Origin: Aurantiochytrium sp. KH105
Taxonomy: Eukaryota; Sar; Bigyra; Thraustochytrida; Thraustochytriidae
DNA length: 64,000 nt
Direction: 5' to 3'
NCBI GenBank assembly: GCA_003116975.1
Contig: BGKB01000202.1
Location: 36,329 to 100,328 of the forward strand
Shown: one piece after another, positions 3,289 through 39,905 of the stretch
How positions within the stretch are numbered: position 1 is the first letter of the stretch
How the letters are laid out: each line of letters begins with the position of its first letter
The notes under the pieces: generated by a model
Told to the model about the DNA's origin: nothing
Databases searched by the model: none
What the model saw: the letters and a program-made list of their open reading frames with translations, nothing else
Translations under genes and position numbers: made by a program

Positions 3289-4187
3289 TCAATCCTCTTG
3301 CATGGAAGTGTCTTCATTGCTTGTTGCTTGCACCGTGTACGTGTTGCGTACGCGATTGGAGCGACGCTTCGTAGGAATTGTCGTCCATCCGTCGTCTTCT
3401 TCTTGTTGTTGCTGTGCTCCGGTTCCAGCCTCATTGTCTGCTTCGGCCTGCATCTTGTCTTCTGAAGCTCCAGCTGCTGGCGCAGAGGCATCCGAAGATG
3501 AGGCAGAGGCTGCAGCGCTCTGGTCGTTCGTCTGCGACGAATCCGCGCCTGCGTCTGCTGATGATGCCACGACTTGCTGATCCATAGTAATGGGGACAGA
3601 GATGAGAGCGAGCGGCTGCTTTTCGTTCGCAGCGGCTTCGAAGCCGGCGTCACCGAGAACGTGGCGCAAACCGGTCGTGGTGCCTGTCCTGGACTCCTCA
3701 AAAATACGCACCACAACCTGAGAAAGGGGCGCGCACATGGGCGCATCTATTTCTGCGTTGAAACGATCCTCCATGGTGTCCACAAGAAAGTCTGCGAGCT
3801 CCTGAGGATCGACGCCGCCAGATTGAGCGCGAAGCGCAAAGTTGGCAAGGGCGTCGTCCACGACCTTGGTACGCTCAAAGTACGGGTCGCCGTCGCTCCA
3901 GCCGCCATCGACGGCCATTTTCATGACCTGTGTCGCGTGCGCCACGATCGACAAGCGTCGTCAGTTTCATTCATCCCCACTCTTGTTGCTGGGCGCGCTC
4001 GCGAGGTGGCGGCGTGCTCGCAGCCAACCCCTTCGCGCGCTCCTGCCCGCATTTGCCATCCTCATTGACTTACATCCCACTCGACCAGGAGCTTGTACAC
4101 GGCCGCCTCGAAGCAGAACCAGAGCGGCGAGGCAGGCGCGGTCCAGTCGCGCTCCTGCGCCACCCTGACGCGGACGGGACGATCCAT
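3289..4187 (-). CDS. TSR2: TSR2-like pre-rRNA-processing protein / eS26 chaperone (one intron)
   Basis: Two exons read on the minus strand: 4187-4074 (38 codons from ATG) and 3927-3289, giving 250 residues. The intron 4073-3928 begins GTAAG and ends ACACAG, in phase 0. The joined N-terminus contains W-F-C-F-E-A-A-V, then the Trp-Asp and G-G-W stretch typical of TSR2, followed by a helical region with an E-x-L-A-D-F-L element. A Ser/Ala-rich linker leads to D-D-G-W-T-T-I near the C-terminus, like the acidic-Trp motif of the family. In yeast and humans TSR2 binds ribosomal protein eS26 and delivers it to 40S precursors. The first exon is needed to rebuild the domain, which supports the splice model. 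Confidence 0.85.
3928..4073 (-). other. Intron of the TSR2 gene
   Basis: A 146-bp phase-0 intron with a GTAAG donor at 4073 and a CAG acceptor ending at 3928. Without it, the second exon would start with residues that do not resemble the family. Confidence 0.8.
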
Positions 4188-4494: not shown

Positions 4495-6036
4495 TCATCG
4501 CTGCTGCTTGGAAAAGTTGCTCGAAAGCGAGTTGATGTCTACAAAATGGCCCATGCGACGCGCCTTCGCCTGCACGTAGTTCATGGAATAGTCCGAGTTC
4601 GGAACGACGATGCACTCGAGGCGCTCCGTAATGGTAATGCCAAGCGCCTCCAGGCACTCAATCTTGCGTGGGTTGTTGGTGAGAAGGCGAACGCTGTCAA
4701 TTTTCAAGTCACGAAGAATGTCACGGACCGAGTCGTACTCGCGAGCATCGTCGGGCAAGCCAAGATGGCGGTTGGCGTCCACAGTATCAAGCCCCGTTTC
4801 CTGCATGGCGTAAGCGGCAATCTTGTTGGCCAAACCGATGCCACGGCCCTCTTGCGGAAGGTAGAGGACGATTCCCCCGGCCGGTGCAGGCGTGGCCTTG
4901 TTCACATCCTCCGGGTGCGGTTCTTGCTTGAGCCCATGATCAGGGACGGCGGACTCGCCCTTGATAAAGTTGAGCGCAAAGTCGAGCTGCTGTTTGCAGT
5001 CACACTTGAGGCTGCCAAAGATTTCGCTCGTCAGACACTGATCGTGAACACGCACAACGACATTACTCTGACCCTCGACATTGCCATGAATGATGGCAAG
5101 AGGCTCGGCGCCCGTCTCCGGGTTGCGGTATGCGCGCACGCGGTAGCGACCATTGTGCGTGGGCAGAGTTGTCTCGGCGACAAATTGATACCGGGTCTCC
5201 TCCGCGGGCTTTTCAGCTGCATCCGAATCAAGAAACCGCGTGGCGTAGTTCTGGTGTCGATAGAGAGACTTGCCATCGGTCTGCTCGCTGTCTCCGCCGC
5301 GCTGGGTGGGCTCGCCTTCGATGTCCGCCTCGCCTTCGTTGGCGTCATTCGGGGCCTTGTCTTTGAGGGCGTCAACCGTGACCAGACCCTTGGCACTGCC
5401 GTATCCAATATACACGTTGTCCAGAAGCGCAGGTCCGCGTGGGATGGACGAGTACACGGAAATGAGCGCCAAGGCATCGTCCAGGCACAACCGCGGGTAG
5501 CTCTGCATGTGCGGCGGGATGGGGATGCCGATGACCTCACCGTGGTACACGGAGAGCGCCTTTTTGTTGTTGTCGAACTCCGGTTTGATCGTGAGAATGT
5601 TCCAGAACGGCTGGCCGTCTTTTCTGTAGTTGAGGATGACCACGCTCGTCTGACTCGTGTCCTTCATGGCGGACCGAAGCTCCTCGACGTCGTTCGGGTC
5701 GGTCTGTTCTCCCTGCAGAAAGTTGCACTTGCGCCCGACCATCTCCTTCTCCTCGTACCCCGTGAACGTGAGGAAGGCGGGCGTCACGCTGAGCACAATT
5801 CCGCTCTCGTCCGTGAGAATCTCGTTCGACGGCAGCGAGGCGAAGTTGCTCGCGCTGCGCGCGCGTCTGCGGATGCTGCCCTTGATCACCGTTGTACTTC
5901 TAAAGTCCATCGGCATGTTCTCAGGCGGCTGCCCGCTCTCCGCGGCAGATTCCGACGCTGCGGCGGCCCTCGTCGCCGCCATCTCCCCGGGTACCCCCAA
6001 GCCAGGCGTCGTCTCTGGGTCCACGCTCTCGCCCAT
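4495..6036 (-). CDS. LOV-domain / GTP cyclohydrolase II fusion protein
   Basis: A 513-residue fusion. Residues 71-170 are a LOV-type PAS domain with the G-R-x-C-x-F-L-Q photoactive motif (Cys104), N-Y-R-K-D-G (Asn136) and F-W-N (Asn146). After a linker of about 110 residues, residues 283-505 form a complete GTP cyclohydrolase II. It has the zinc ligands Cys334, Cys345 and Cys347 in the G-S-L-K-C-D-C context, Q-E-G-R-G-I-G-L, D-A-N-R-H-L-G and L-T-N-N-P-R-K. GTP cyclohydrolase II converts GTP to 2,5-diamino-6-ribosylamino-4(3H)-pyrimidinone 5'-phosphate, the first step of riboflavin synthesis. No DHBP synthase domain is attached, unlike plant RIBA. I took the first ATG (6036); the frame stays open to 6294 without another ATG, and that extension is low-complexity. 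No intron interrupts the two domains. It is divergent from the VKOR gene. Confidence 0.92.
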   Translation of the reverse strand: MGESVDPETTPGLGVPGEMAATRAAAASESAAESGQPPENMPMDFRSTTVIKGSIRRRARSASNFASLPSNEILTDESGIVLSVTPAFLTFTGYEEKEMVGRKCNFLQGEQTDPNDVEELRSAMKDTSQTSVVILNYRKDGQPFWNILTIKPEFDNNKKALSVYHGEVIGIPIPPHMQSYPRLCLDDALALISVYSSIPRGPALLDNVYIGYGSAKGLVTVDALKDKAPNDANEGEADIEGEPTQRGGDSEQTDGKSLYRHQNYATRFLDSDAAEKPAEETRYQFVAETTLPTHNGRYRVRAYRNPETGAEPLAIIHGNVEGQSNVVVRVHDQCLTSEIFGSLKCDCKQQLDFALNFIKGESAVPDHGLKQEPHPEDVNKATPAPAGGIVLYLPQEGRGIGLANKIAAYAMQETGLDTVDANRHLGLPDDAREYDSVRDILRDLKIDSVRLLTNNPRKIECLEALGITITERLECIVVPNSDYSMNYVQAKARRMGHFVDINSLSSNFSKQQR

Positions 6037-6720
6037 ATTCCCCTTCGCGTTCTCGATCCCGCAAGCCCGCACGCTACGCGCGCCCGGCCTTCCCGCCACG
6101 CCCGAACGCACGCACGCGCGCACGACCGCCCGCACGTCCGGCCCGTCAGCCCCGATGGCCCCTGCGCCGCCCTCGCCCTGCTCCGCGCGCGCGACGCCGC
6201 CCTCGATGCCGCTCTGCTCGCCCTCGGCCTCGGCGTCGCCAATGCCGACCTCCCGCACCGCCGGGTTTGACTGCACGCTTTCCGCGGCGCACACCCTGGG
6301 ACGCGCACGCTCTGTCCCCGTGCGCGGAATGCCGCTTTTCCCGCGCCGGGGACCCCCCCTTTCTGAAGCCCGTCGTCCGTCTGGTGACCTTGGCTTGGCC
6401 TGGCCTGGCCTGGCTTGGCCTGGCCTGGCCTGGCTTGGCGCCCGTGGCTCACGCCGCCCCTCGCCCGCCGGAGACGCTCGGGGTCCGCGACGCGAGTCCA
6501 GGGGAGGACTGGGTCCAGTTCGCGCAGCCGCACGATACTGACGCGTGCAAAAGTGTAATAGTGACTGAAGTGAAAGATGTGACGGAAAGGGAGGAGGAGA
6601 CGAAGCTGGAGCTGGGGCTGAGCATTACCGCCGCGGACTGCGCAGAGCAAAAGTGAACGAACCGCGGCGACGTCACGGGCCCGGCGGCGAGGCGGCGACG
6701 GGGAGGAGGGACGCGGGGAG
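6037..6720. promoter_or_regulatory. Divergent promoter region between LOV-GCHII and VKOR genes
   Basis: A 684-bp space between start codons on opposite strands, so it must carry both promoters or part of the 5' untranslated regions. It contains a higher-order TTGGCC repeat at 6391-6440. No light-response element can be named from sequence alone. Confidence 0.5.
6391..6440. repeat. Higher-order TGGCC/TTGGC repeat (20-bp units)
   Basis: Ten pentamers of TGGCC or TTGGC form two identical 20-bp units (6391-6410 and 6411-6430) plus a partial third. It lies in the divergent promoter space. Confidence 0.9.
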
Positions 6721-7251
6721 ATGGCGCGCGTGAGGAGGACGCCGACCTGGCGCGTGCGCGCGGTGCAGGCGGACGCGCTCCTCGGCGTCGTCGTGAGCGC
6801 GTACGCGCTGTACGTGGAGACGCAGCTGCGCGAGTCGCCGCTGTACGAACCGGCGTGCAACTCGTTCGGAGGCTCGTGCGCCACGGTGCTTACCTCGTCG
6901 CACGCCCATATTCTGTCGCATTGGGGCATCGTGCCGCGCGGCCACGTGCTCGACCTCAGTCTCGCAACGGCGGGCATTTTGCTCTATTCGACATACCTGC
7001 TGGCGATCTCCATCCCCTTTAGCTTTCCGCTCCGCGAGCATCTCTTTCTCGCCGCAGCCGTCTCAGGCGCCTGCTTCTCCGTGTACCTTTTGTACGTCAT
7101 CAAGTACATTTTGCACGACTTTTGCATTGTCTGCACGAGCTTTCACGTTTGTAACTTTTTCATGTTGGTCTTGGCGATCTTGGAGTTTCGCCAACCCAGC
7201 GTCCCGTGGCCCAGGAAGGCACCGGTGGGCTCCGTCAAGAAGCAAGACTGA
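6721..7251 (+). CDS. Vitamin K epoxide reductase (VKOR) family membrane thiol oxidoreductase
   Basis: A 176-residue membrane protein, close to the length of human VKORC1. The redox centre C-I-V-C is at Cys135-Cys138 near the start of the last helix, and the paired loop cysteines are Cys46 and Cys53 between the first and second membrane spans. Four hydrophobic segments are visible (about 18-34, 78-98, 107-130 and 139-156). VKOR enzymes pass electrons from quinones or vitamin K epoxide to partner thiol proteins and support disulfide formation, here probably in the ER. The start is the ATG at 6721; nothing better lies upstream. The C-terminus (K-K-Q-D) is a weak dilysine-like tail. It is convergent with the nucleoside hydrolase gene. 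Confidence 0.9.
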   Translation: MARVRRTPTWRVRAVQADALLGVVVSAYALYVETQLRESPLYEPACNSFGGSCATVLTSSHAHILSHWGIVPRGHVLDLSLATAGILLYSTYLLAISIPFSFPLREHLFLAAAVSGACFSVYLLYVIKYILHDFCIVCTSFHVCNFFMLVLAILEFRQPSVPWPRKAPVGSVKKQD

Positions 7252-20886: not shown

Positions 20887-23800
20887 TCAATGCGAAGAGC
20901 GTTTGCCGGCTGGCGGAGACAATGATGCAATCTCGGCCATGTGTGCGCGCGTGCAGATCCGCACCTCTGGTGAACGTGCTGCACACTCGAGCAAAAGTTT
21001 GCTTCCGTGAAACACCACTAGCTCCCAGCGCACGAGCTGCTTGGTCTGGGCCGTAACCAGCTGCTGTACAAGCTTCTCGACCACGTACGAGGCACGAATG
21101 CGCATTGCAAACGGTCTCCATTCCGCACATGGAAGTAAAAGCTGCTTGAGAAGGCGAAAGAGAACCAATACCTGCGGATGCACCGTCAGGGTGGGTCCTC
21201 GTTGAAGAATGGATGTCACCAAAAATGAAGCGAGACCCATCGCCATTCGTTCTGATGACCGACTCAGGTCCTCCATCATTTGCACGGCGCAGGCCTCATC
21301 GAGCAAAATCAGACGTCGCCACAAACCTGCGTTCACGGCGAGGTTCACAAGGCCGTCCTTGTCGTCAGAGAGAGCTTCGTCCTTATCGCCCAGAGCGCCG
21401 TTACCAGCACCAGCACTGGCAACGCCAGTACTTGCGCCACCAGTTTCATCAGGACTAGCGCCAGCACTAACGCCGGCGTCGTTGCCCTCTAAGCCCCCAT
21501 CCGCGGTACTTTCACCGTCTTGTTGCACTGTTACATCGCCGTTCACGTGCGATGGTATCGTTGAAACGCTAGAGACATTGGCGCTGGCAGGGGTGACCGC
21601 TGTCTCGACAGGATCAGTAGCACCATCATAAGCAACCTTGACGCCAGCATCTTGAGCACCTTGAAGCTTTTGCTCGGTGTTGATACTCACGTCAACATTG
21701 TCATCGACGACTTTCTCAACTACCTCCTCTTCCTCGTCCTCCTCTTCATCGTCCGTGGTATCGTGGTGCGAATCGTCGACGACAATCAGGTCGTCCAGAA
21801 TGCTATAGTGCCGCCGCGAGCGCTTGCGTTGTAAACGACGCTGGGCCGCACTTGCGACGAGAACACGCAAAAGACTCGCCGCCGCCTTTGTTCCCGGTGT
21901 CGGGACTGAACCTTCGTACGATGTATAAGCTTTTGTAACGGGCCGTAGCAAACCAAAGTCAAGCAGCATGCCACTCTCCACAGCCCCAAGAGACGCAAAA
22001 GCCTCCATAATTACAAAGTACTGCACACACGCGTCCGGAGTGGTCATTTGCTTGGAGAGCCAAAAGTGAAATGCGCGGACAAATCGCGAAACTGCCTCTG
22101 CATTCGCAAGCGCCTGGCCCTCCATCGAGGCAACCACCAGGCGCGCCACGGTCTGCCGAACTGTTGGTTTTGGGCACAATAGAAATACTTGTTCCACGCG
22201 GTCCTTGTCTTCCAGGTACGAGAGGAGCCACCGCTGCGCGCTGTCGCTCCTGCTGATAAGTTCCACCAAGCGCACCTCCCATTCCGGGAAAAGGCCTTCC
22301 ACCAACGTTCCCCAGCCATGTGCGGGAACATCGAGAAGGAACTGGATGCTCAGCCGGGCAATCGCCGCTCGGGATTCTTCCGTGCCAGCGTCGAGCCCAA
22401 TGCGCATTAAATTCCAGGCGAACTTGTACGTGCTCGCATCAAAGACATAGTTGTGACGAATAAACGTAAGGTTGTCCTTGAGCAAGGCGTCCACCACGTG
22501 CGATGGCAACTTGAGCATGGACACACGCTGACTTCCGTCTCTTGGCTGGCGCAAGTCGCGCGCTCGACTTGCATAGGCGAGGACTCTTGTATCCAAACGA
22601 GCCGAACTGCGTCGCCTTCGTCTGTGCATAAAGTGCTGCAGCATCTCGATACCGCGCTCGTCTACACCTCGGTCCTGCGCGACTTGCTCCCAGGACCGTC
22701 CATGCCGCTGCGTACGCATACCTTCGCGTCGACTCGACCGCGCCAACGGCGATAGAGAAAGTCGGAACGCACTTGAATCCGCAGCGCCGTACGCGGGGTC
22801 AAACTTGTTTTCCAAGTCGCCACTCCCGTGACGGTTTTTGCTTCCCCGCGCACTACCCGCTCCGCACTCGCTCCCACTGTCCGAGCCGGCCGCTGCGTCA
22901 AGCACAGCAAGAATATCCTGAGGACTTGAGATATTGAAGCGTCCCAGAAGCCCTGCTTGCTCCATCGTGATCAACGGAGGTGCTGGCAGGTCCTCATCAT
23001 CGTCCTCCTCTTCCTCCTCCTCTTCGTCATCCTCCTCGGCTGTTTCGGCACCTTCTTCGTCAACCTCAAGACCAGCTGTCTCTGCTTTCATTGCCTCGGT
23101 CTGTTCATCAGCTGAGACATGATTCTCGGAGACAGATGGCGCGTCCTCCTGCTCCTCCTCATCGTTTGCATCATCACTTTCGACAAGGAGTGCCGCGTGT
23201 TCACCAGATTCGTCGACCGAAGCAAGACCTGCAAGGTGATCCAAATTTGTGTCAAAGCCCCGTCCCGAATCAAGACCTAGCGAATCGTCAGTGTTTTCAA
23301 CGCTACTCTTGCCATCGTCGCTGACGTCGCGGACGTCGTTGACGTCGTTGGCGGCGTTATCATCCACTTCAACACCTGGGGCATACTCCTCGACCACGTC
23401 GCTATTTTCGCTGTCGCCCTCGTCATCATCGTCGTCGTCGTCTTCGTCGCTCGATATGGCCGAATCTTGCTTGGTATCCTCGAGATCCTCGAGATCGCTC
23501 CACAGCCCCGGCGAGTTGCCGAGCTTTGTCTCTGGGGAAGCGTCGCTCGCCCAGTTCCCTTGCGATTGCTGGGTCATCTTGCGGTCATAGACTAGCATGT
23601 AAGCACTGCGTGACTTGATCACCTCTGCAACTGATCTATCACTACGCATGATACGCTCCTTGCCGCCAAAGCAGTCGCCTGGAATGCAGTCAATTGGGTA
23701 TGGCCACACAAACTTATCATTGAACTCGATCCATTGACCTCCAACCTTGGGAAATCGAGGTCGGCGTTCGCGAACAAACGAATAGTAGTGTCCCGAATCC

Positions 23801-26800
23801 ATCGTGCCGGTATGCGCAATGACGCCGACCAGCTCATATTGATAAAACCCTGAGCCCATACGATCTTGAGAATCCTCTGCACCGGCGTTGAGTCTTGAAG
23901 ACGAGCCTGCCTCTTCTGGCCCACCTTCGAGAGATTCTGTGCTTGAGACAGGTACAGACCCGCCCGAGATGGACTCCCGCGATACCGAGTCCTCATCATG
24001 GATATCGTCCTTGCTCCCACCCGGCGTACGCACGCTGCTGTTCTGTGAAATGTAGTCGTACGTAAAGGGTTCAAGGTCGAGCGAGAGTGGAAACTCAAAG
24101 CGGTCATTCAGCTTGCGCCGCGTAAGTGTCTGCAAGTCGAATTCAAAGCGCTTCAAGTTGATAATGAGATGGTCCGGAAGCTCCTTGATACACGTTCGCT
24201 TGATGGCGTCGACGCGTTCGCCAGATTCAAGCTTGTACTGGTTGTCGCCAGTCAAAAGCTCGCTTTGCACCATGGCTTCGAGCGCTTCAGACAATGTCGA
24301 ACAACCCTTGATGTCGAGCGGCAACGAGTGGAACGGGTCCGGTCGCTCCGAGACATATGGGTTGTTTGGATCCTTGCTGATGATTTGGTTCACAAGCAAA
24401 CCTCGAAAGTGAGACTGGACGATTTCACGTGCGTGCTCTGACTCGGACTCGACATGATCGAAAAGCTCCGCGGCGAATTCATTCACGTCACGCTGCTCGG
24501 AGAGGTCGATTGACGCCCCATTTGCCTCAGCAAGAGCTTTGCAAAACGGAAAAGGATCATAGTAGTGCTTTGTGCTCACACGCAAAGATCCAAAGGTAAC
24601 CTGCAATTGGTGCAAGAATGTCCCACTGCGCACAGATCGGATCGACAAAATTGCCTCGCTAAAACTCGGAATATGAAAGAGCTGCTGGATGAATGAGTTC
24701 ATGTAGCACGTGGCGCCAAGATTCTGAAGTCCAGTAAATTGCTGCGGATGCTTGACGAGCGCCAAGGGGTTATAGTGCCACTCCTTGGCGAAGCGTGCGC
24801 GAAATCCAACCTTGGCGGAACCACCAATGCCATCCTCCTCGAGGAGCTCGCACAGAAGCGCCAGATTAGCCGGACAGTCTTCAAGAAGCTCGACGAGCAA
24901 CGCAAAAGCTGCATCGCGGCTCGCTTCGCTCTTGCACAGCGCACTGCGGTCATGAAGGATGAGCGACTGACCACTGAATGATCGACGTAGCATACCGCGC
25001 GCGCGGCGACCGTGCGAGTAGGATCCGCCACTGTATCGGCGGTCGCTCGACGTCGGTGTCGGCACGGAGCCGTGCGGGGTCCCAGGAGACTGTTGTTGAG
25101 CGCTTTGCTTCTGTCGCGCTTCTGAGCGAATCATCTCCAAGCGTGCGCGATCTCCCTCAAAAGTGTAGCTATTTGCAAAGAGCAGGTCGTGATACAAGTA
25201 CTTGAGCAGATTGTGTTCTGCTGCGAGTGTCTTTAGCGACGGATCTTTGGCCACCACCGTTCGCAAGAGACGAAGTAGGCCGATCATGAGCTGATCTTCT
25301 CGATCTGTATGGAAGCTCTCAAGGCTTTCGTGCATGAGAAGTGCGTCCAAGCTGCGCAGAAAGATTTCGCGCGTCAACGAGGATACTGCCTCAGCTTGGT
25401 GGTCATGCCATAAAATCTCTTCGTCGGGCTTGCCCGATGCTACACTTGCCTTTGGCGTGAAATTCGGTGCATTGATCAGATTCTCATCGACCATGTCAAT
25501 CAGACCAAGCATGAGCATGTGAAACTCGCGACACGAAGACGAAAGATTCCGGTGGGCGCGGCGCACAAGCATGCCGTCACGTTGCTCGGATCGCAGAGGC
25601 GCATGCATTGCCTTGTCGATGGGCAAAAGGAGGATAAGGTAGTCGCGCGAAAAAGCTTTGCGCTCAACAAAGAGAGAGTCGTCATGCACGCCCTCGCACG
25701 AATTTACCAGCGAGCATAGCGTCAGGAGTGCGCCGCACGCACGTGCGCGGGTGACCTGGTCTTCGCAGTAAATGACGAGCTGCTCTGTCAGCTCGCGAAT
25801 GTGCTCGAATCGAATGAAAGACCGCATGGTCTCCACGTCACCGACGGTGATGCAACTCATCACAAGATACATGGCCCTGTCGACGACTTCGCGCATCATA
25901 TCCACAGAAATAAAGGCATCGGCAGTACACAAGAGCATTGCTTCCAGCGAGGACTCAACGATGCGCGGGAAATCCTCCGGGCGGCACGCGTGGACATCTG
26001 CCAGCGGGGGTGGCGCAAAAAGTGATCCTTTGGAGACAGGGGGGCGCAGTGTCTTGGTCGGCACCGCGTGCTTTGCCTGTACTGCCTCGTTGTTTTGGTC
26101 ATGTTCATCAGCGCGAATCTCGTCGGCTTTGGAACTCTGCTTATTCTGGTGGTCCTCTGCGGGCGTCAGAGCATCTGTGCCAGTGATTTTAGAGTTGCTG
26201 TTGCTGCTGCTGCTGCTACTGCTGCTGCTGCTGGCTTTGCTGCTGATGATGATGCTGTTTGCCGCGTGCTGCTCGCTCGCTTCCAGCGGCGGCACATCTT
26301 CTATTGGCAAATCGATCGAATCTGCAGGGACAGAGCGGTTTGGCGCGGGGGTCGCTGTGTTGCGTCTTGCTCGACGCACGGCTCTTCGACTCTTAATGTT
26401 GATCATTGTCGCAAGACGCCAAAAGGCATTCTCATCACCTGGCGCCGGACTACTGGACCCCGCAACATCTTGCGACGGCGAAGGGTGCGGCAGCAGATCC
26501 TGCTGTCCGCCAATCGCAGATTGGATCGCGCCGTCTTCCCCTTGAAGAGGGCTGTTCACGGGCGAGCTCGGTCGCAAGGGCGAGCCCAAGCCCTGCTGAG
26601 AGCCGGAAAGTGGAGACATCGCAGTGTATGGCGATGCTGGCGAGTTCAGAGACGACGCGAAACTTGATCGAGATCCCGAAACTTGGAGGAAAAAAGCGAG
26701 GCGCCGTCGAAATCCTTTATCCGCGTAGAGAAGTGCGGCAATGATTTGGACAAGCACAGAAATGCACTCGATGCGCCGAGGTCCAGAGAGCGAGCGATGA

Positions 26801-29800
26801 TTGAGCAAAATTCGCAAGAGATGCTCTGTTCCTGCGCCTGACACAAAGCGCTTGAGCCAGGCGGACTGCTCCCCCAACGGTTGAAGGGTGCGAGAATCGA
26901 CGCGCAGGTCAAACTTGGGCATGTCAAATGCACGTTCGGCTTCCATCTTGCGTCTTACGATCCGAAGTGCATACAAGAGTCGATGTGTGGAGTGAAGAGG
27001 CAAAAGACGGTTCCAGTCCTGGTCGAGAGACTCGATCGCCTTGACCATGGCTTCATCCTTTTGAAGAAGCAGCAGACAATCCCAGACGTTCTGCATAGCG
27101 CCTGGATCTGATGATACAACGGACTCCTCGCTCTCTCGAGCTGGATCCAATACCTGGAACATGTCTCCGCAGATGGAGTTGATGAAATCTCCTGAAAAAG
27201 CGAGCGACGACACTCGAGCGTCGGGATCGGAAACACCATCTGTGCCAGCAGACGATGCAGCTGACATTGTCTTTGCGTCTGTACCCTCTGCGACAAGACC
27301 TGCAAGCGGAGACGCATATCCAGTCTCAAGTGCCTTTTGAACGAGAGGTGTTGCAAGTGCCACGAGTTGGTCCTGGCGTCGCTCGTCTCCGCCAACGGGC
27401 TGAAGGCGTTCCTTTTTGGCTCCATTTGGTCCAACAGCTCCGGGCACCGTTGCGCGCTCAAGTTTGACGTCCAAGACTTTGACGGAGTCCCAGTCACGAA
27501 TGCCGAGATCTTTGAGGGTACGTTGGAGATCTGAATCTGCAAAAGGCTTGGGCGGCCCTTGCAGCTCGAGCTTTTCCGCCTGTAGCGAGTTTCCTCCCGC
27601 GGCGCGATAACCGTGAGACGAGCCAGGTCCCGGAGGGTGATGATTTGCAAGGCCGCCCTTGCCGCTCTCTTCAGCGGATACTTCCTTCGTTGCCGTCATT
27701 GTCTCCACAGTAATGGGTCGGGTGGTCTTGGCTTCGCCCGTTTCCGCCGCCTGTTGCTGCTGCTGGTGCAAGTCCGAACCAATATCGCCAAATTTCTCCT
27801 CGTCATCCGTAAACCAGTCGTCAAAGCCTGTTGCCGGGTCAGGGGCGCGGCACGGATTATTGACGAGCCGCAGCGATAAACTTGCTGCCGGGACCTTGAT
27901 CTTTTCCGCAATCATCCCTTGAAGGTCACCGAGAGTAGCCTCTTCACCAAGACGCAATGAAAAGGAAGTCCCAGGTCCAATGGGGATGTACTCGCGGCGC
28001 GTGAGCGAGCCCGGAAAACCAACCGCGGGCGGAATCACGACGATGCTAAGCTCAGACAGGGAAGCATGCTCGCTGTATTGGCTGAGGAAGAGCTTGAGGG
28101 TCGCCGAGGCTCGTCTCGCCTGCCGGAGCATCTTAAGCGAGTCCATGCCAGCTTTGTTGATTTTATGCGCCTCAGTGATTTTGCGCACGCACAATTCCAC
28201 AAATTCCATTTGCATTTTCCCTTTGCGACCTTTGAGGCGCGGAGCCACGTGCGTGTGCAAGTACACCAAGTGGGCGACGGCCGCAAGGCCAACCTCGTGG
28301 CGACGCGCTTCGAGAGCTACGCGCCACAGAAAGTCGCCACCTTCCAAGGAGGACCCGTGGCGTTCGATGAGGCGAAAGAGAAATGCAGAATTTGGAGCAT
28401 TCAGCATTGCGCGCGACAGAGCGCGAGCCTCTTGGTCGCGGCGTGTCCTCCGCGCCAAAAAGGTGCCATTGTGCTCGGGTCGCGCCCGACGCAGATTCCG
28501 TGCCCTGTAATTGATGGCCATAAAGAAGCTTTGATAGACTCGAAAGGCAGTTGGCGTGAGCGACTCCGTCCCGAGAAGCTGCATATGTTCGCGGAACAAG
28601 TGTGCCGCAACGTCTTCGGAAAAGACCGAATTCTTGGACACGAGATCTCCCGGCTGCCCTTTACCATTGCCCGAGGACTTGTTGTTGTTGCCACTGGTGG
28701 TGGTGCTGTTGTTGGCGCTGCTGTTCTTGCTTCCGTTTGCTTCGAGCGAGGCCGCATTGGTTGCAGTACCCGCCTGCGCGGGTGTTGAGGCAGCCTGCGT
28801 GTCCCCCGCAGGCTTGGCGGCGGGCGTTTGTGCTCCTCCAGCGGTGGAGCCAACTTCTGTCAGATCTTCTTGCAACTGGGACACACGACGGATCCCGCTT
28901 GCTTGCGATCGTGCAAACCAGAGAAGAGCGATATCCTGCGAACGCTCCGTCGGCGCTGCGGCAACCATGGCCATCCATAGCTCTTTTGCTGGAGTCTTTT
29001 TCAGATGCAGGTATGAATTTGTCAACACAAAGAGGAGAAAATCGAAGCGTTCCGCGAGCTGGTCCAAGTGTGTGTAAACGCTTCCCGGAAGACAGAATCC
29101 ATCAACGTCTTCAGGACTGAGACGAGTGCCTGCGATTCCGGATGCGACCAGGCGGATGCGGCTCTGATAGTGAGTGAGACCCGCGCACACAAGTCGGACG
29201 AGTTTGTGCTGTTTGTCGAGACGTTCAATCATGAGTTCTGTTGGCGTACGACGATTCTCTGATATCGAAAACCAAGAAGCTTTGGCCTGCGGCGAGACCG
29301 TGATGATCCGTCGAAGAACTTCGAGCGCTTGTGGAACAGACTTGTCCATTCGAAGGAGCTCGATGCAATCCTGCAAAATTCGGCCTCGTTGCGAGGCACA
29401 GCGAGACGAGCCAGACAAGAGCTTGATCAAGAGACTGATGGCCTCGCGCCGTTGGGCAAGGGACCTCGAATTTCTCGAAAATGAAGACTGCCGCGAAATG
29501 GAAAGTGCCTGGTTTTCCTTTCCGTGCTTGGTGGACAGCTCTTCGCCCCGACGAGGTGGCGGTGAAGCCCTTAGGCCAATGGCATCAAAGTCCATTTTTG
29601 TAGAATTCTTATCTGCCTCCTCCTCTTCCTCTTCCTCTTCTTCTTCTTCGTTTTCGTCCTCCTCATCTCCCTCCTCCTCCGCCGCCACGTCCTCCTGGTC
29701 CTCCTCCTCTGCTGCGACGTCCCCATTTTCGTCTTTGACCATCTTTTCACGTTCAAGGGAAGCTATTCCTGGCCCGTTATGTTCATCATTGGCGTCGCGC

Positions 29801-32800
29801 TCGTTCGATATGGTGGAGGGCTCATCACCAGACCTTTGGTTCTTCCGGAGCTCCCAGAGCTTGCTTTCTTCGCTGGAACCCTTGTTCACACCATCCGCAA
29901 AGGAATCGTCTTCATCGCCGGTCACTTTGTCGCCGGATCCGAGCGTTTTGATCTGCTTGCTACTGTTGCTATTTTCCGCTGCAAAAGAGGAAGTCGCCGC
30001 ATGAAGCGTTGCATCGTCAGCTCGTCTCGATTTTGCTTCCACGTCGTGACGGTGCTGGCGTGACGGTGTAGTGCTCATTTCGCTGCTGTCACTGCTGCTC
30101 GACAAATCCTTGCTATCCTCGCGCTCGATCGTGTCGTCGTCAGATGTCTGCGAGTCATCAAGGATGAAGCGCCAGAGAAGTCGCAAGCCGTACCAGTAGT
30201 CGTCGGGCGCGTACTCGAGCATGTGTGCTTCCTCGCGTCCAAAGGCATCCCCAAAGCGCGCTGACGTAGTTCCAAGAGGCGCGCTTCTCGGTCCGCTTCC
30301 GCTGGCTCCTACTGCAGCGCTTTCCACGGCAGCGATGGAGAGCGAGCCGGACGAAGGCACGCGTGGGGCTGGCGAGTTTGATCTGCGGCTTGAGGGCCCA
30401 TTATCGGGCGAGCTCATTCTCGCTGTACTGGGTGACCGCGAGAGTTTGCCATGCGATTGAGTGGCTCCGTCCGCTTCGAGTGCAACAACGGTGACCTCGG
30501 AAATGAAGCGCAAGATCTCTCCTCCCTCGTCGTATTCATGAAAGGGGATGGCTGCCACGCAGTCCTTGAAAAAGCGCATTCTCTCTTCATGTGAAAGCCG
30601 AGGGATGAGAGACACGAGCAAATTGTGAATGACGCGCATTGTTGCGTGGTCTCTCCCGAGGCTGGCAGACCACACACGCTGCAAGAGTCGATCGTCCAAA
30701 ATACGTTCGCGACTCATGTACAGGATGACAGCCGTGCTGCGACTGAGCATCTCAAAGTGCAGATTCTTATTGGCGTAGAGCTCCGAGACGACGTTTGCGC
30801 GTTTGAGCCAGTTCTTGAACCAATCCTTTCCGATTAAAGTGAACGCGCATAAAGCTGCTTGACTTGTACTTCCGCTTGCGCGTTGAAGCCCCGCGGAAGC
30901 CCCGCTGAAAGCAGCTTGTCGTTGCTGTCCGTCTTGCTGTCCTTTGCCTCCCTGAGGCGTAGAGGATCCTTTGGACGTTGCTGACGCCGAGCCGGAGGAC
31001 GACTGGCGCGTAAAAGTAGCTGACTGCGAGTTCGCGCGCACGCCCTCAAGAATGTTGTGCAGACCAAAGAGGCGCGCCTCGATTGAGCTAAGCCGCAAGA
31101 AATCAACCATGGTTTCCATGATCAGACGCTCCTGAGTGCACTGTGCGCTCCGCGTCTTGGCAACCTCGCTTTCCGAGCTGGATGACGCAAGAACCCGAGC
31201 GGCAGCATTTGCGATGTGAATTAGATCAGAGGGATGTTGCTGGACGTTTTTCAGTTCCGCGTCCGACATGATGCTGAGGCGTTGGCGAACGGCATTGTAC
31301 AGAGCTTGGGCCAAGTGGACCCATGCGCTCATCTCTTGCCGGGAAAAGAGTGAATGAATGGCGAGCAGAGCACGAAGAAAGGCCATGACAAATGGCAGTT
31401 CCAGCGGGCGTTGCTCCTCACGAATGCGCGCGCAAATGGCTTCAAATCCACCGCAAGCAGCAAAAGTATTCACATTGGCCACGAGGTACTCTGAGAGCTC
31501 GAAGGAGGCGGTAGGCTCCGGTAAGCGCAGCAGAGGGTTTTGTCGAGGAGCTTCAGTTGTGACGCCTTCTTCCTCATCGAACGCGAGATCGTCATCATCA
31601 TTGTCGACTTCGTCCGTGCCGTCCTCAGGAGATGATTTGGAAAATTGTCCATGCTGATGTTTCAATCCGCTGGTATCCGGCTCGAAACGGAACGGCTTTT
31701 CCAAAAGATTGACGCGCAGACAGCCCTGGCCGTCGGTGCCCTGCATTTCGCCTTGGCGAAGACGATGACGCTCTTCGTCGTCAAGACCAGGGTCACCACC
31801 GTCTGGACCATCTTCTTTGACGACAGATTGTTGTGATGCAACTGCCGGAGGAGTTGCAACATCGAGCATGAACTCAAACCCCTCGCGCTGTAAGACGCGG
31901 CCAACGAGAACCTTACGTGGGTCGATCTCGACGTGAACGATGTCACCCACGAGAGGAAATGCTCGGCCGGCTCCTGGATTTTTCAGTGTCTTCACTTCAT
32001 CGTAATTGCTCCATCGAACACGAAATCGTGGCGCAGGCGCATCTGACCCAGGTTGACTCGTATCAGAGTTTCCCCGCGCAACTTGGTCCTCGACAAGGTA
32101 CGTGTCCGATTTTAGATCGTAGGAGAGCAGAGTGACGATGCGGGATCCCCCGTTGGCGATACCAGCTGCTGCTTCCCGGAGTGGTTTTGCTTCGTTGGAG
32201 GCATGTGAAATAAGTTCGACAGTCTGACCGATGCGAGCCTGCATTTTCTGCATAATATCTCGAGATTGTGCTGGCCAGTAGTAAAGCTTGCGCTTGTCGC
32301 TACTGACGACGTACTTTGGCTGCCCGCGGTAGCTGTAAAAGCTTCTGCGGCCGGACACGGAGTGCACGGCGGCAGCGACGTTGGCGACGGTTCGCACACT
32401 TTTGGGGGATGCCGCCGCGTTGGCGGCTGCAGACGCGCTCTGTGGAATTGTGCGCGGTTGATGCACCGGCCCATCGAGAAGCATGAGGACAATTCGACAG
32501 AGTGCAAAGTAGTCGAGAGGCATGGCGGCTTTGCCGAGCCTGAGCACGGACTGAAAGAATACATTTGTTTGGTCTGCGTGTGCGGGTGCAATGGAGCACG
32601 TGAAGAAGAGCGCGTGCACGACCTCGAGAAGATCTCCGTCCAGGAGTTGGTTTTCAGCGTCGGATAATACGTTTCGGTTGACACTAGCATTTGCCTCGAT
32701 GGTTTTGCGTATGCGATCGGTGACTCGTTGCAAGCGTTCCAGCGCGGTTGCCCACTCTGCATCATTCGACTCTGCAGTCTCTTTGAGAACTTTGAGGTCT

Positions 32801-32973
32801 TTTCCTAGCGCGACCATGTCACTTTCACTGTTAGCAGGCTCTGGGTAGTTCTTCGCGCGGTTCCCTTCACGGTCGTCGTCGTTGGGTTTGGGGTCTGGGT
32901 TCGCCGTCATCATTTGCGCCATCGTTTGCGCCCCGCTCGACGCGCCTTGCACATCTGACGTCGCGGACTCCAT
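20887..32973 (-). CDS. Giant ubiquitin-specific protease (USP9X/USP24/USP34-like)
   Basis: A single exon of 4,028 codons beginning at the ATG at 32973. The USP catalytic domain spans about residues 2747-3130. The Cys box is N-L-G-A-T-C-Y-M-N with Cys2756, and the His box is H-T-G-T-M-D-S-G-H-Y-Y-S-F with His3062. The long N-terminal part is helical-repeat-like with a possible ubiquitin-like region near 1655-1710. It is broken by low-complexity stretches: a Glu-rich tract near 1085-1120, a Ser tract near 2250, and Asp/Glu-rich blocks after the catalytic domain. Size and order resemble the largest animal USPs, which remove ubiquitin from many substrates. It is longer than human USP34 (about 3,550). 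It is convergent with cytochrome b5. Confidence 0.93.
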   Translation of the reverse strand: MESATSDVQGASSGAQTMAQMMTANPDPKPNDDDREGNRAKNYPEPANSESDMVALGKDLKVLKETAESNDAEWATALERLQRVTDRIRKTIEANASVNRNVLSDAENQLLDGDLLEVVHALFFTCSIAPAHADQTNVFFQSVLRLGKAAMPLDYFALCRIVLMLLDGPVHQPRTIPQSASAAANAAASPKSVRTVANVAAAVHSVSGRRSFYSYRGQPKYVVSSDKRKLYYWPAQSRDIMQKMQARIGQTVELISHASNEAKPLREAAAGIANGGSRIVTLLSYDLKSDTYLVEDQVARGNSDTSQPGSDAPAPRFRVRWSNYDEVKTLKNPGAGRAFPLVGDIVHVEIDPRKVLVGRVLQREGFEFMLDVATPPAVASQQSVVKEDGPDGGDPGLDDEERHRLRQGEMQGTDGQGCLRVNLLEKPFRFEPDTSGLKHQHGQFSKSSPEDGTDEVDNDDDDLAFDEEEGVTTEAPRQNPLLRLPEPTASFELSEYLVANVNTFAACGGFEAICARIREEQRPLELPFVMAFLRALLAIHSLFSRQEMSAWVHLAQALYNAVRQRLSIMSDAELKNVQQHPSDLIHIANAAARVLASSSSESEVAKTRSAQCTQERLIMETMVDFLRLSSIEARLFGLHNILEGVRANSQSATFTRQSSSGSASATSKGSSTPQGGKGQQDGQQRQAAFSGASAGLQRASGSTSQAALCAFTLIGKDWFKNWLKRANVVSELYANKNLHFEMLSRSTAVILYMSRERILDDRLLQRVWSASLGRDHATMRVIHNLLVSLIPRLSHEERMRFFKDCVAAIPFHEYDEGGEILRFISEVTVVALEADGATQSHGKLSRSPSTARMSSPDNGPSSRRSNSPAPRVPSSGSLSIAAVESAAVGASGSGPRSAPLGTTSARFGDAFGREEAHMLEYAPDDYWYGLRLLWRFILDDSQTSDDDTIEREDSKDLSSSSDSSEMSTTPSRQHRHDVEAKSRRADDATLHAATSSFAAENSNSSKQIKTLGSGDKVTGDEDDSFADGVNKGSSEESKLWELRKNQRSGDEPSTISNERDANDEHNGPGIASLEREKMVKDENGDVAAEEEDQEDVAAEEEGDEEDENEEEEEEEEEEEADKNSTKMDFDAIGLRASPPPRRGEELSTKHGKENQALSISRQSSFSRNSRSLAQRREAISLLIKLLSGSSRCASQRGRILQDCIELLRMDKSVPQALEVLRRIITVSPQAKASWFSISENRRTPTELMIERLDKQHKLVRLVCAGLTHYQSRIRLVASGIAGTRLSPEDVDGFCLPGSVYTHLDQLAERFDFLLFVLTNSYLHLKKTPAKELWMAMVAAAPTERSQDIALLWFARSQASGIRRVSQLQEDLTEVGSTAGGAQTPAAKPAGDTQAASTPAQAGTATNAASLEANGSKNSSANNSTTTSGNNNKSSGNGKGQPGDLVSKNSVFSEDVAAHLFREHMQLLGTESLTPTAFRVYQSFFMAINYRARNLRRARPEHNGTFLARRTRRDQEARALSRAMLNAPNSAFLFRLIERHGSSLEGGDFLWRVALEARRHEVGLAAVAHLVYLHTHVAPRLKGRKGKMQMEFVELCVRKITEAHKINKAGMDSLKMLRQARRASATLKLFLSQYSEHASLSELSIVVIPPAVGFPGSLTRREYIPIGPGTSFSLRLGEEATLGDLQGMIAEKIKVPAASLSLRLVNNPCRAPDPATGFDDWFTDDEEKFGDIGSDLHQQQQQAAETGEAKTTRPITVETMTATKEVSAEESGKGGLANHHPPGPGSSHGYRAAGGNSLQAEKLELQGPPKPFADSDLQRTLKDLGIRDWDSVKVLDVKLERATVPGAVGPNGAKKERLQPVGGDERRQDQLVALATPLVQKALETGYASPLAGLVAEGTDAKTMSAASSAGTDGVSDPDARVSSLAFSGDFINSICGDMFQVLDPARESEESVVSSDPGAMQNVWDCLLLLQKDEAMVKAIESLDQDWNRLLPLHSTHRLLYALRIVRRKMEAERAFDMPKFDLRVDSRTLQPLGEQSAWLKRFVSGAGTEHLLRILLNHRSLSGPRRIECISVLVQIIAALLYADKGFRRRLAFFLQVSGSRSSFASSLNSPASPYTAMSPLSGSQQGLGSPLRPSSPVNSPLQGEDGAIQSAIGGQQDLLPHPSPSQDVAGSSSPAPGDENAFWRLATMINIKSRRAVRRARRNTATPAPNRSVPADSIDLPIEDVPPLEASEQHAANSIIISSKASSSSSSSSSSNSNSKITGTDALTPAEDHQNKQSSKADEIRADEHDQNNEAVQAKHAVPTKTLRPPVSKGSLFAPPPLADVHACRPEDFPRIVESSLEAMLLCTADAFISVDMMREVVDRAMYLVMSCITVGDVETMRSFIRFEHIRELTEQLVIYCEDQVTRARACGALLTLCSLVNSCEGVHDDSLFVERKAFSRDYLILLLPIDKAMHAPLRSEQRDGMLVRRAHRNLSSSCREFHMLMLGLIDMVDENLINAPNFTPKASVASGKPDEEILWHDHQAEAVSSLTREIFLRSLDALLMHESLESFHTDREDQLMIGLLRLLRTVVAKDPSLKTLAAEHNLLKYLYHDLLFANSYTFEGDRARLEMIRSEARQKQSAQQQSPGTPHGSVPTPTSSDRRYSGGSYSHGRRARGMLRRSFSGQSLILHDRSALCKSEASRDAAFALLVELLEDCPANLALLCELLEEDGIGGSAKVGFRARFAKEWHYNPLALVKHPQQFTGLQNLGATCYMNSFIQQLFHIPSFSEAILSIRSVRSGTFLHQLQVTFGSLRVSTKHYYDPFPFCKALAEANGASIDLSEQRDVNEFAAELFDHVESESEHAREIVQSHFRGLLVNQIISKDPNNPYVSERPDPFHSLPLDIKGCSTLSEALEAMVQSELLTGDNQYKLESGERVDAIKRTCIKELPDHLIINLKRFEFDLQTLTRRKLNDRFEFPLSLDLEPFTYDYISQNSSVRTPGGSKDDIHDEDSVSRESISGGSVPVSSTESLEGGPEEAGSSSRLNAGAEDSQDRMGSGFYQYELVGVIAHTGTMDSGHYYSFVRERRPRFPKVGGQWIEFNDKFVWPYPIDCIPGDCFGGKERIMRSDRSVAEVIKSRSAYMLVYDRKMTQQSQGNWASDASPETKLGNSPGLWSDLEDLEDTKQDSAISSDEDDDDDDDEGDSENSDVVEEYAPGVEVDDNAANDVNDVRDVSDDGKSSVENTDDSLGLDSGRGFDTNLDHLAGLASVDESGEHAALLVESDDANDEEEQEDAPSVSENHVSADEQTEAMKAETAGLEVDEEGAETAEEDDEEEEEEEDDDEDLPAPPLITMEQAGLLGRFNISSPQDILAVLDAAAGSDSGSECGAGSARGSKNRHGSGDLENKFDPAYGAADSSAFRLSLSPLARSSRREGMRTQRHGRSWEQVAQDRGVDERGIEMLQHFMHRRRRRSSARLDTRVLAYASRARDLRQPRDGSQRVSMLKLPSHVVDALLKDNLTFIRHNYVFDASTYKFAWNLMRIGLDAGTEESRAAIARLSIQFLLDVPAHGWGTLVEGLFPEWEVRLVELISRSDSAQRWLLSYLEDKDRVEQVFLLCPKPTVRQTVARLVVASMEGQALANAEAVSRFVRAFHFWLSKQMTTPDACVQYFVIMEAFASLGAVESGMLLDFGLLRPVTKAYTSYEGSVPTPGTKAAASLLRVLVASAAQRRLQRKRSRRHYSILDDLIVVDDSHHDTTDDEEEDEEEEVVEKVVDDNVDVSINTEQKLQGAQDAGVKVAYDGATDPVETAVTPASANVSSVSTIPSHVNGDVTVQQDGESTADGGLEGNDAGVSAGASPDETGGASTGVASAGAGNGALGDKDEALSDDKDGLVNLAVNAGLWRRLILLDEACAVQMMEDLSRSSERMAMGLASFLVTSILQRGPTLTVHPQVLVLFRLLKQLLLPCAEWRPFAMRIRASYVVEKLVQQLVTAQTKQLVRWELVVFHGSKLLLECAARSPEVRICTRAHMAEIASLSPPAGKRSSH

Positions 32974-38177: not shown

Positions 38178-39905
38178 TCAGAAGAACGTGGTGGCACTTG
38201 CCGACGGAGTGGCGGAAATGTTAAGGTTGCGTGACTTGCGTACCAAATCAGCCGTCTTGGGCGAGAGGGTGCGGTCGCTCGGGCTGTCGGGCTTTGCCGG
38301 AGGCTGGCCCGCAGAGGCCGCAAACTTGTTATAGGCACGGACAGCCTCGGTCTCCGAGTCGAAGAAGCCAACGCAAGAGTGCATGCCGTTGACGTTGACG
38401 TCGCAACGGTAGCGACCCGAGTTTTTGCAATACGATACCCCCGGGCAGCTCGTTGACGAACGTGAGTGATCCTTGGTATCTGATGTTGCTGCTGCTGCTG
38501 CTGCTGCTGCTGACCCTGCTGCACTGGTGTCTGCGCCCGTGGCCGTGGGGCGCTGCTTCTTGCGAGGCGAGCCATAGTCGTCAGCGCTCTCCTGGTTTGC
38601 GTCGGGGATCTGGAGCTCGAGATTTGGCCGGCGTTTGGTCGGCGAGGTGTTTGACTTCTTCAGGCGACCCATCGACGAAGCATCGCCGCTTGCACCGGCG
38701 TGGAGCTTGCTGAAAACATTCTTGACGCCTTCATAGCTGTTGTTGTTATTGTTGTTGGTGTGCCTTGGGGAGTTCATTGGCGAAGAAAAGGGCGAGATGA
38801 GGGGGGAGAAGGAGCTCGAAGGGAAGACCGGCGCAAAGGTGTCCATGCCGCCCGTGACTTCGGTGCCATAGCTGTTTCCAAGCATGCCAAGATCTTCATG
38901 AGACAGAGACGGGCCAAAGTCGTATGGGTGCCTTGGGACAATCTTGGTTGTCGACTTGGAGGACGTCTTGAAGCTCGGAGAATGCCCGTTTTGCTGGCGC
39001 ATCTGCAAGTGCTGCTGCAGCTGCTGCGGGTGCATGAGGAACTGCTGCTGACTCGATTGTGACGGCTGGAGGCCCTGCTGCTGCTGCTGCAGGTGTGGCG
39101 AGGATTGCTGGCCCTGCGGCTGACGCGAGCGGTTGCCATGAGGGACGGCCTTGCTAACAGTGTGTCGCGCCGGGGGCTTACTCGGGATCTGGTGCGCAGG
39201 AGGCACGATGCCATCGGGAAAGTTGAGGCGACCCGTGTTGCCGCGCCATTTCTTGCTTGCCTCATCGTACTTCTTCGCAGCCGCGACCTCGGTGTCAAAG
39301 TAGCCGAGAAACTTTTGCACCTTGTTTACAGTAATGACGCTCTTCCACTTTTGAGACTTGTAGTTGAAGGAGACGCCGCGGAACTCGGAGCTCTTGCGAC
39401 GACCGGCTTTGCTGATGCTGCCCGATCCAGAGGTGGTGCTGCTTCGTCGGCTGCTCGAGGTCTGCTGACGCGGTGCCATGAAACCGGTGTTGCTCGTGGG
39501 CAGGGAGAAGTGGCTGCCAGTCGTCTTGGGCACAGGCGGGACGCCACCGTCAAGAAGGGAGCTGCTCATGGGCACAATCTGCTTGCGGGAGCTGATCTTG
39601 AGCTTGGTGTCGGTGGTCGGGCTTGCCGCGTTAGTGGACGCAGAAGAAGGCGACGCGCCGAGGCTGGCCGGAATGGGCGGGCCCGAGCTTCCTTGTGCGG
39701 CGCCGCGAAGGCTCGCGAGCTGATCGTCAGCGTTGCCGCTGTATGAGCCGGCGAGCGCGGGTACGGGCGGCTTTGGCACGTCTCCAAAGGGGCTGAGCTC
39801 GTCGAGAAAGGCGAGGTCCTTGGTGGTGACATCGATCATGAGACCGTCGTGGTCACCGAGCGCGAAGCACGCGTCAAAAAACTCGTCATGCGTACCCAGA
39901 TCCAT
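38178..39905 (-). CDS. Two-AP2-domain DNA-binding protein
   Basis: A 575-residue single-exon protein from the ATG at 39905. Residues about 174-229 form a good AP2/ERF-type domain: F-R-G-V-S-F, W-K-S-V-I, F-L-G-Y-F-D-T-E-x-A-A-A, and R-L-N-F-P. A second, more divergent one lies at about 487-532: P-G-V-S-Y, Y-R-C-D-V-x-V-N-G, V-G-F-F-D-S-E-x-E-A-V-R-A-Y. Between them is a Gln/Ser/Pro/Asn-rich region with Q runs, typical of activation domains. AP2 domains bind GC-rich DNA through a three-stranded sheet and occur in plants, apicomplexans and stramenopiles. The product is probably a nuclear transcription factor; its target is unknown. The C-terminus could differ if the gene has an unseen 3' intron. 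Confidence 0.88.
   Translation of the reverse strand: MDLGTHDEFFDACFALGDHDGLMIDVTTKDLAFLDELSPFGDVPKPPVPALAGSYSGNADDQLASLRGAAQGSSGPPIPASLGASPSSASTNAASPTTDTKLKISSRKQIVPMSSSLLDGGVPPVPKTTGSHFSLPTSNTGFMAPRQQTSSSRRSSTTSGSGSISKAGRRKSSEFRGVSFNYKSQKWKSVITVNKVQKFLGYFDTEVAAAKKYDEASKKWRGNTGRLNFPDGIVPPAHQIPSKPPARHTVSKAVPHGNRSRQPQGQQSSPHLQQQQQGLQPSQSSQQQFLMHPQQLQQHLQMRQQNGHSPSFKTSSKSTTKIVPRHPYDFGPSLSHEDLGMLGNSYGTEVTGGMDTFAPVFPSSSFSPLISPFSSPMNSPRHTNNNNNNSYEGVKNVFSKLHAGASGDASSMGRLKKSNTSPTKRRPNLELQIPDANQESADDYGSPRKKQRPTATGADTSAAGSAAAAAAAATSDTKDHSRSSTSCPGVSYCKNSGRYRCDVNVNGMHSCVGFFDSETEAVRAYNKFAASAGQPPAKPDSPSDRTLSPKTADLVRKSRNLNISATPSASATTFF

Follow-up and report, generated by a model that had tools for sequence, protein, structure and literature searches.

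A GTP cyclohydrolase II with an N-terminal LOV domain in Aurantiochytrium sp. KH105: a possible light-and-flavin gate on vitamin B2 synthesis

The window, by which we mean the whole stretch of 64,000 nucleotides of Aurantiochytrium sp. KH105 that was analyzed, contains on its minus strand a single open frame of 513 codons that runs from an ATG to a TGA (6036 to 4495, stop codon included). This single-exon gene joins a LOV domain to a GTP cyclohydrolase II (GCHII) in one 513-residue product, as judged from the open frame, its Pfam domains and an allele divergence that is biased towards silent changes. The first 70 residues (5827..6036) are rich in Ala, Glu and Pro and vary between alleles (P7R, V15A, A21P). 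They are followed by the LOV domain at approximately residues 71-172 (5521..5826), by a helix predicted at the J-alpha position (residues 181-197; 5446..5496), by a coding tether that is predicted to be disordered (residues 207-278; 5203..5418) and by the GCHII domain with its zinc cysteines (residues 278-505; 4522..5205). The latter carries an insert whose core is at residues 364-382 (4891..4947) and whose full length is about 20-25 residues. All of these features lie on the minus strand.

Upstream of the fusion, and divergent from it, is a VKOR-family gene on the plus strand (6721-7251). The region 6300-6700 may be a promoter common to both genes, and a 10/20-base tandem repeat that lies between them (6391-6439) differs in length between alleles. 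Downstream is a TSR2-like (WGG) pre-rRNA-processing gene on the minus strand (3289-3954), matched at E 1e-5 and 26.1 bits, which is just below the cut-off of 26.8; by eye it has a possible first exon near 4187-4070. Three further minus-strand frames in the window are a very long intron-free frame that extends over 4028 codons and encodes a USP9X-type ARM region as well as a ubiquitin C-terminal hydrolase domain (20887-32973), a 575-aa frame that is possibly an AP2-type DNA-binding protein given a weak AP2 match of 32.2 bits against a cut-off of 33.3 (38178-39905), and a 989-aa frame with RCC1-like repeats (45912-48881).

The gene was compared with a second allele on another contig (C207), which has the same 513 codons, no indel and 27 substitutions. 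Over the whole frame there are 20 silent and seven replacement changes (pS 0.056, pN 0.006, Fisher p 2e-8). Counted as single-base silent and replacement differences, these divide into 3 and 3 in the N-terminus, 1 and 0 in the LOV domain, 8 and 4 in the linker, and 8 and 0 in the GCHII domain; counted by codon there are six replacement codons, three in the N-terminus and three in the linker. The LOV and GCHII domains together thus show nine silent differences and no amino acid difference. For the LOV domain alone, the one silent and zero replacement changes in 102 codons (p 0.21) are too few to prove constraint. The linker alone (residues 173-277) exhibits silent-biased divergence (Fisher p 0.002), indicating that coding sequence runs across the domain junction. 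Upstream of the ATG several indels separate the alleles, and some of these (e.g. one of 7 bases) are frame-breaking, so that 6036 is well supported as the start; an in-frame extension to a GTG at 6294 was rejected because of such indels in that interval. The earlier note had described the two domains as fused within one exon and had thought a splicing artefact unlikely, and both statements hold, with the frame intact in both alleles and the linker behaving as coding sequence. That two genes, or an assembly error, have been merged into one frame is highly improbable, given that the same frame recurs on the second contig with 27 substitutions and zero indels and that the linker diverges between alleles as coding sequence does. 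On the evidence of these sequences, the LOV-GCHII fusion is confirmed as one real gene.

The second half of the product has both the GTP_cyclohydro2 domain and the three zinc cysteines of a GCHII (C334, C345 and C347). Pfam places GTP_cyclohydro2 (PF00925) at residues 286-473 with an E of 1e-53 and 181.8 bits, relative to a cut-off of 23.3. Among NCBIfam models, NF001591 (RibA) scores 205.7 bits, over its cut-off of 148, and TIGR00505 scores 200.4, slightly below its cut-off of 205.85. The best PDB match of this half is the E. coli GCHII. The QEGRGIGL and DxR-type motifs are intact and presumably have the roles that we attribute to them in GCHII. A complete GCHII, as previously proposed, is thus upheld by the domain, the cysteines and the RibA family match. 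Pfam detects in the fusion neither GTP_CH_N, which marks the UTP cyclohydrolase/URC1 type and is present in a paralogue described below, nor the DHBP synthase domain (PF00926) of bifunctional RibBA proteins. The insert is missing from the aligned prokaryotic and viral GCHII rows and is predicted to be disordered. From its sequence, the fusion most likely serves the cell as its GTP cyclohydrolase II, which catalyzes the first committed step in making riboflavin.

The first half of the product is nearer in sequence to LOV domains than to generic PAS domains. Specifically, Pfam assigns PAS_9 to residues 74-162 (E 6e-14), NCBIfam matches a blue-light-activated histidine kinase (E 6e-25) and YtvA (E 5e-24), both far under their whole-protein cut-offs, and the best PDB matches of the PAS part are phototropin, aureochrome and bacterial LOV proteins (best E 4e-19 in one search and 1e-20 in another). 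A generic PAS domain was rejected as an alternative, as these PDB and NCBIfam matches are LOV proteins. The photoactive Cys of the GxNCRFLQ-type motif is present as C104 in GRKCNFLQG, where the flanking N and R are K and N, and all four residues named in the earlier note (C104, C334, C345 and C347) were correctly called. The pocket was compared by eye with 16 LOVs, taken from eight plasmid records and eight viral contigs, with two nearly identical. Apart from C104, the fusion retains Q108, the Gln of FLQ (Gln in 15 of the 16), R121, the Arg of the following helix (Arg in 14), and N136 of NY and N146 of FWN (Asn in all 16 at each position). These four we take to be flavin-contact residues, assigning their pocket roles from the phototropin literature. 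The residues on either side of the photoactive Cys differ: the fusion has Lys before it, where every compared LOV has Asn, and Asn105 after it, where 15/16 have Arg. Judged by these residues, the LOV domain of the fusion would bind FMN and undergo a photocycle.

A further difference is that the active-site Gln, present in 16/16 compared LOVs, is absent from the fusion in every register of the last strand (160-168), and residues 150-177 contain no Gln. About 350 putative natural LOVs also lack this residue, so its absence is compatible with LOV membership. The LOV profile alignment ends at residue 161, before the candidate positions in the last strand. A gapless alignment to bacterial LOVs places Glu167 at the Gln site; if the length of the loop before the strand differs, our own reading of the alignment places His165, Tyr164 or Val168 there instead.

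What these residues could mean for signalling may be gauged from a study of Gln-less LOV receptors (PMC9098866). LOV receptors are reported there to usually keep light signalling after loss of the Gln, and most Gln replacements in YF1 were functional. Glu at the site worked in one test protein, YF1, whereas light signalling was abolished by His in YF1 and NmPAL and by Tyr in YF1, and Pro also failed in NmPAL. The roughly 350 putative natural Gln-less LOVs mostly have Leu or Ile at the site and some have His, with large aromatic, proline and charged residues largely absent; one natural Gln-less LOV-diguanylate cyclase was light-responsive. By analogy, Val at the site of the fusion would fit a working switch, Glu could work although it would be rare among natural receptors of this kind, and a switch would be doubtful with His or Tyr. 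Light control of the fusion is thus plausible from its sequence but not assured, because the Gln is missing, two of the four candidate residues abolish signalling in tested proteins and Glu is largely absent at this site in nature. The absent Gln, together with the replaced Arg after the photoactive Cys, weakens the light reading as far as sequence can tell, and the register and identity of the residue at the Gln site, a point that the earlier note had missed, are its central uncertainty.

The two halves were modelled separately with AlphaFold2. The model of residues 173-513, built from 20 alignment rows of GCHIIs, has pLDDT values by block of 78-95 except in the insert and over the final 20 residues, and its GCHII block has the GCHII fold, with a TM of 0.93 by target length against E. 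coli GCHII (2bz0), a comparison in which the alignment rows were themselves GCHIIs. In this model the tether (207-278; pLDDT <50) and the insert (364-382) are disordered, and a helix is predicted at 185-196 with a block pLDDT of 58. Allele changes also fall within residues 173-277, which cover most of the tether. The model of residues 55-230, built from 10 alignment rows of LOVs, places strands at 71-75, 80-84, 130-137, 143-150, 152-154 and 160-168 in a LOV topology, with a core block pLDDT of approximately 58-85 and a tail below 50. A helix at 181-197 occupies the J-alpha position, where block pLDDT falls from 67 to 40. The 50 nearest PDB chains listed all have LOV domains, with a TM of 0.90 by target length to Chloroflexus LOV variants, although this agreement is partly expected as the alignment rows were LOVs. 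The disordered tether of about 70 residues argues against a rigid coupling of helix to enzyme and for control by docking or through the dimer.

We searched the genome (76 Mb in 367 contigs) for other enzymes and photoreceptors of these types. Five flavin-pathway families (GCHII proper, DHBP synthase, lumazine synthase, RibD_C and flavokinase) each occur at two places, one per contig. The genome therefore appears to contain two haplotypes, with one copy of each tested flavin-pathway gene per haplotype; DHBP synthase is a separate gene, on contigs C300 and C42. PF00925 has four matches, namely the two fusion alleles and the two alleles of a second gene (L003:1357-3102, minus strand, with allele L004). 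This second gene has GTP_CH_N plus GTP_cyclohydro2 and no LOV domain, and its closest match is the UTP cyclohydrolase 7eev (E 4e-157). Given the GTP_CH_N domain and this match it is probably not a GCHII, and by sequence it is probably an enzyme of the pyrimidine-catabolism type. It was thus rejected as a backup GCHII, being of the UTP-cyclohydrolase type, and the fusion is the sole GCHII found in the genome sequence.

The LOV half also appears to stand alone. A whole-genome search with it returned the fusion and one other PAS gene at an E of 1.74, and of the 21 PAS_9 matches in the genome 20 were given as loci, among which only the two fusion alleles fitted the pattern used for the LOV cysteine motif. 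No other LOV was found in these exon-wise, six-frame searches, which could miss a LOV cut by an intron. Other blue-light flavoproteins are probably present, given eight photolyase/cryptochrome-family matches, seven of which are over the cut-off (contigs C3, C19, C26, C21, C68, C227 and C60); the match on C227 is split across two frames. The genome also has a PfaA-type polyunsaturated fatty acid synthase match, at best 930 bits in a frame of approximately 1,250 codons and under the cut-off of 1010. Such matches occurred in 11 of 14 control genomes as well, none over the cut-off; the match is in keeping with a labyrinthulomycete but, as a weak test, no proof of one.

Among the prokaryotic and viral loci searched, no such fusion was seen. 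A LOV profile run in six frames over 30 prokaryotic and viral GCHII loci detected no LOV (best E 1.3; in two of these loci, L067 and L068, no more than 63 bases precede the match), while its positive controls, L055 and the fusion itself, scored 2e-60 and 3e-29. A whole-protein search of prokaryote genomes gave 16 loci, of which 15 held a GCHII and one a short PAS piece, and the same search of viral contigs gave no relative; it was based on six short peptide patterns from the fusion and is thus not exhaustive. When the viral contigs were searched with the GCHII alignment, 15 loci were obtained. Nine phage records matched one part only, five the GCHII part and four the LOV part, and LOV matches were found in 275 plasmid records and at 11 viral loci. 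In seven of the loci (L005-L009, L011 and L012, from an Alcanivoracaceae bacterium, Undibacterium and several Pseudoalteromonas), the GCHII that matched best is part of an open frame of 421-460 codons with an extra C-terminal half.

The earlier note knew of no characterized protein of this architecture, and likewise we found no description of a LOV or PAS domain on a GCHII in our searches of open-access PMC papers; the fusion may stand unremarked in some existing listing. Glantz and colleagues reportedly made a large survey of LOV domains in 2016. The word "cyclohydrolase" does not occur in the main text of PMC9098866, and PMC13028884, retrieved under riboflavin biosynthesis, blue light and GCHII, has no word that starts with LOV. 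The trapping of FMN by a LOV protein is treated in PMC7017516.

Most known LOV domains are attached to kinases, cyclases, phosphodiesterases or DNA-binding proteins. The fusion shares with bacterial LOV histidine kinases, YtvA, phototropin and aureochrome the LOV core, the photoactive Cys and most flavin-contact residues. It differs from these in having a biosynthetic metabolic enzyme as effector, in lacking the active-site Gln and in having Asn for Arg after the Cys. With natural LOV-deltaQ receptors, as described in PMC9098866, it has in common the Cys signature and the absence of the active-site Gln. On the enzyme side, the fold, the zinc cysteines and the QEGRGIGL and DxR-type motifs are those of E. 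coli RibA (2bz0), to which the fusion adds the LOV domain, the disordered tether and the insert. Relative to bifunctional RibBA it is without DHBP synthase, which is encoded separately.

The nearest functional precedent, by analogy, is the plant PAS/LOV PROTEIN (PLP), which inhibits GDP-L-galactose phosphorylase and is released by blue light; for the PLP enzyme assays the source (PMC10602610) cites Bournonville and colleagues. The common plan is a LOV protein acting on a key enzyme of a vitamin pathway. The PLP system differs in consisting of separate proteins, in serving ascorbate and not riboflavin, and in using a chromophore that does not come from the pathway under control. In Pseudomonas, too, light is described as acting on a GTP cyclohydrolase by way of a LOV protein: SB-LOV and LitR control folE, which codes for GTP cyclohydrolase I (PMC9758184). 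In contrast to the fusion, that control is transcriptional, involves two proteins and concerns a GCH I for pterins and not a GCH II. Finally, in regard to the group itself, phototaxis has been described for the zoospores of thraustochytrids, and the group is known to have channelrhodopsins (PMC12221091 and PMC8818676).

Tentatively, and at a little under an even chance, we read the fusion as a GCHII with an N-terminal flavin-binding LOV regulatory domain that acts as a light-and-flavin gate on vitamin B2 synthesis. FMN, the LOV chromophore, is made from the product of the riboflavin pathway, and the earlier note's statement that the chromophore derives from the product of the GCHII pathway agrees with this established biochemistry. 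In the proposed mechanism, FMN from downstream of GCHII would load the LOV domain, and blue light would then form an adduct of the flavin with Cys104. A change at the last beta strand would shift helix 181-197, and this shift would alter the docking of the tethered LOV on the GCHII dimer, or its pairing with the dimer, so as to change the enzyme rate. As the enzyme stands at the head of the pathway that yields its chromophore, a light response would occur only when flavin is sufficient. The data presented here cover the architecture and the sole-GCHII status; FMN binding, the photocycle, the way in which the LOV domain would dock, and in which direction and how far the rate would change, we infer.

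Several lines of evidence speak for light acting on the enzyme. At the level of sequence and model these are the LOV-like matches, Cys104, the kept flavin-contact residues, a predicted LOV topology with its helix, and the GCHII fold of the second half, to which are added the status of the fusion as sole GCHII and sole LOV found and the zero replacement changes in both domains. By analogy, they include signalling by Gln-less LOVs, the PLP system and thraustochytrid phototaxis. Against light control stand the lack of a Gln in any register, Asn105, the long tether and a LOV constraint that the alleles alone leave unproven. In its most specific form, in which one protein, the only GCHII found, gates flavin synthesis by light and flavin through LOV signalling that dispenses with the glutamine, we regard this reading as possible but doubtful, at roughly one chance in three. 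The main rival, which we consider unlikely by a somewhat greater measure, is a gauge of flavin that is blind to light. In this case a LOV domain loaded with FMN or riboflavin would hold GCHII less active and an empty one would relieve it, giving end-product feedback in which formation of the light adduct is incidental or uncoupled. The loss of both the signalling Gln and the usual Arg after the Cys favors such a gauge, and loss of the Arg possibly loosens selectivity for FMN; the failure of light signalling in tested proteins with His or Tyr at the Gln site (PMC9098866) and a ligand made from the pathway product favor it too. However, a pure ligand sensor would have no need of the photoactive Cys and the GxxCxFLQG motif, which are intact, and the tolerance of YF1 for most Gln replacements in that same source also argues against it.

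Two further explanations appear improbable, and to a similar degree. The LOV domain may sense light with an output in localization, oligomer state, partner binding or stability and not in catalytic rate. The long disordered tether of the model would suit such an output, and LOV proteins that act by partner binding or dimerization are known (PLP and aureochrome), but no partner or localization signal was seen, a statement made without a dedicated tool. Alternatively, the LOV domain could be a leftover from an earlier fusion event that has no regulatory role and persists because the protein needs it to fold or assemble. The Gln-less last strand and Asn105 would be at home in a leftover, and the allelic differences in the LOV domain are too few to judge constraint. 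Nevertheless, Cys104 and the rest of the core signature are preserved, and the 102 LOV codons have 0 replacement changes where the N-terminus and the linker have three replacement codons each.

The fusion is a new instance of the known plan that places a sensor on an enzyme. If the light-and-flavin gate is true, this would be a rare direct control of primary metabolism by light, exerted at the committed step of flavin synthesis, and would form a very short loop from a photoreceptor to its own chromophore supply. The protein would also combine a naturally Gln-less LOV with an enzyme activity that is simple to read out, and it would test, in a natural setting, whether LOV domains can act as flavin gauges. 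Should the cell have no GCHII besides the fusion, whatever the LOV domain does to it would be felt across the whole flavin pool. Thus, light, vitamin supply or both may set the riboflavin output of this organism.
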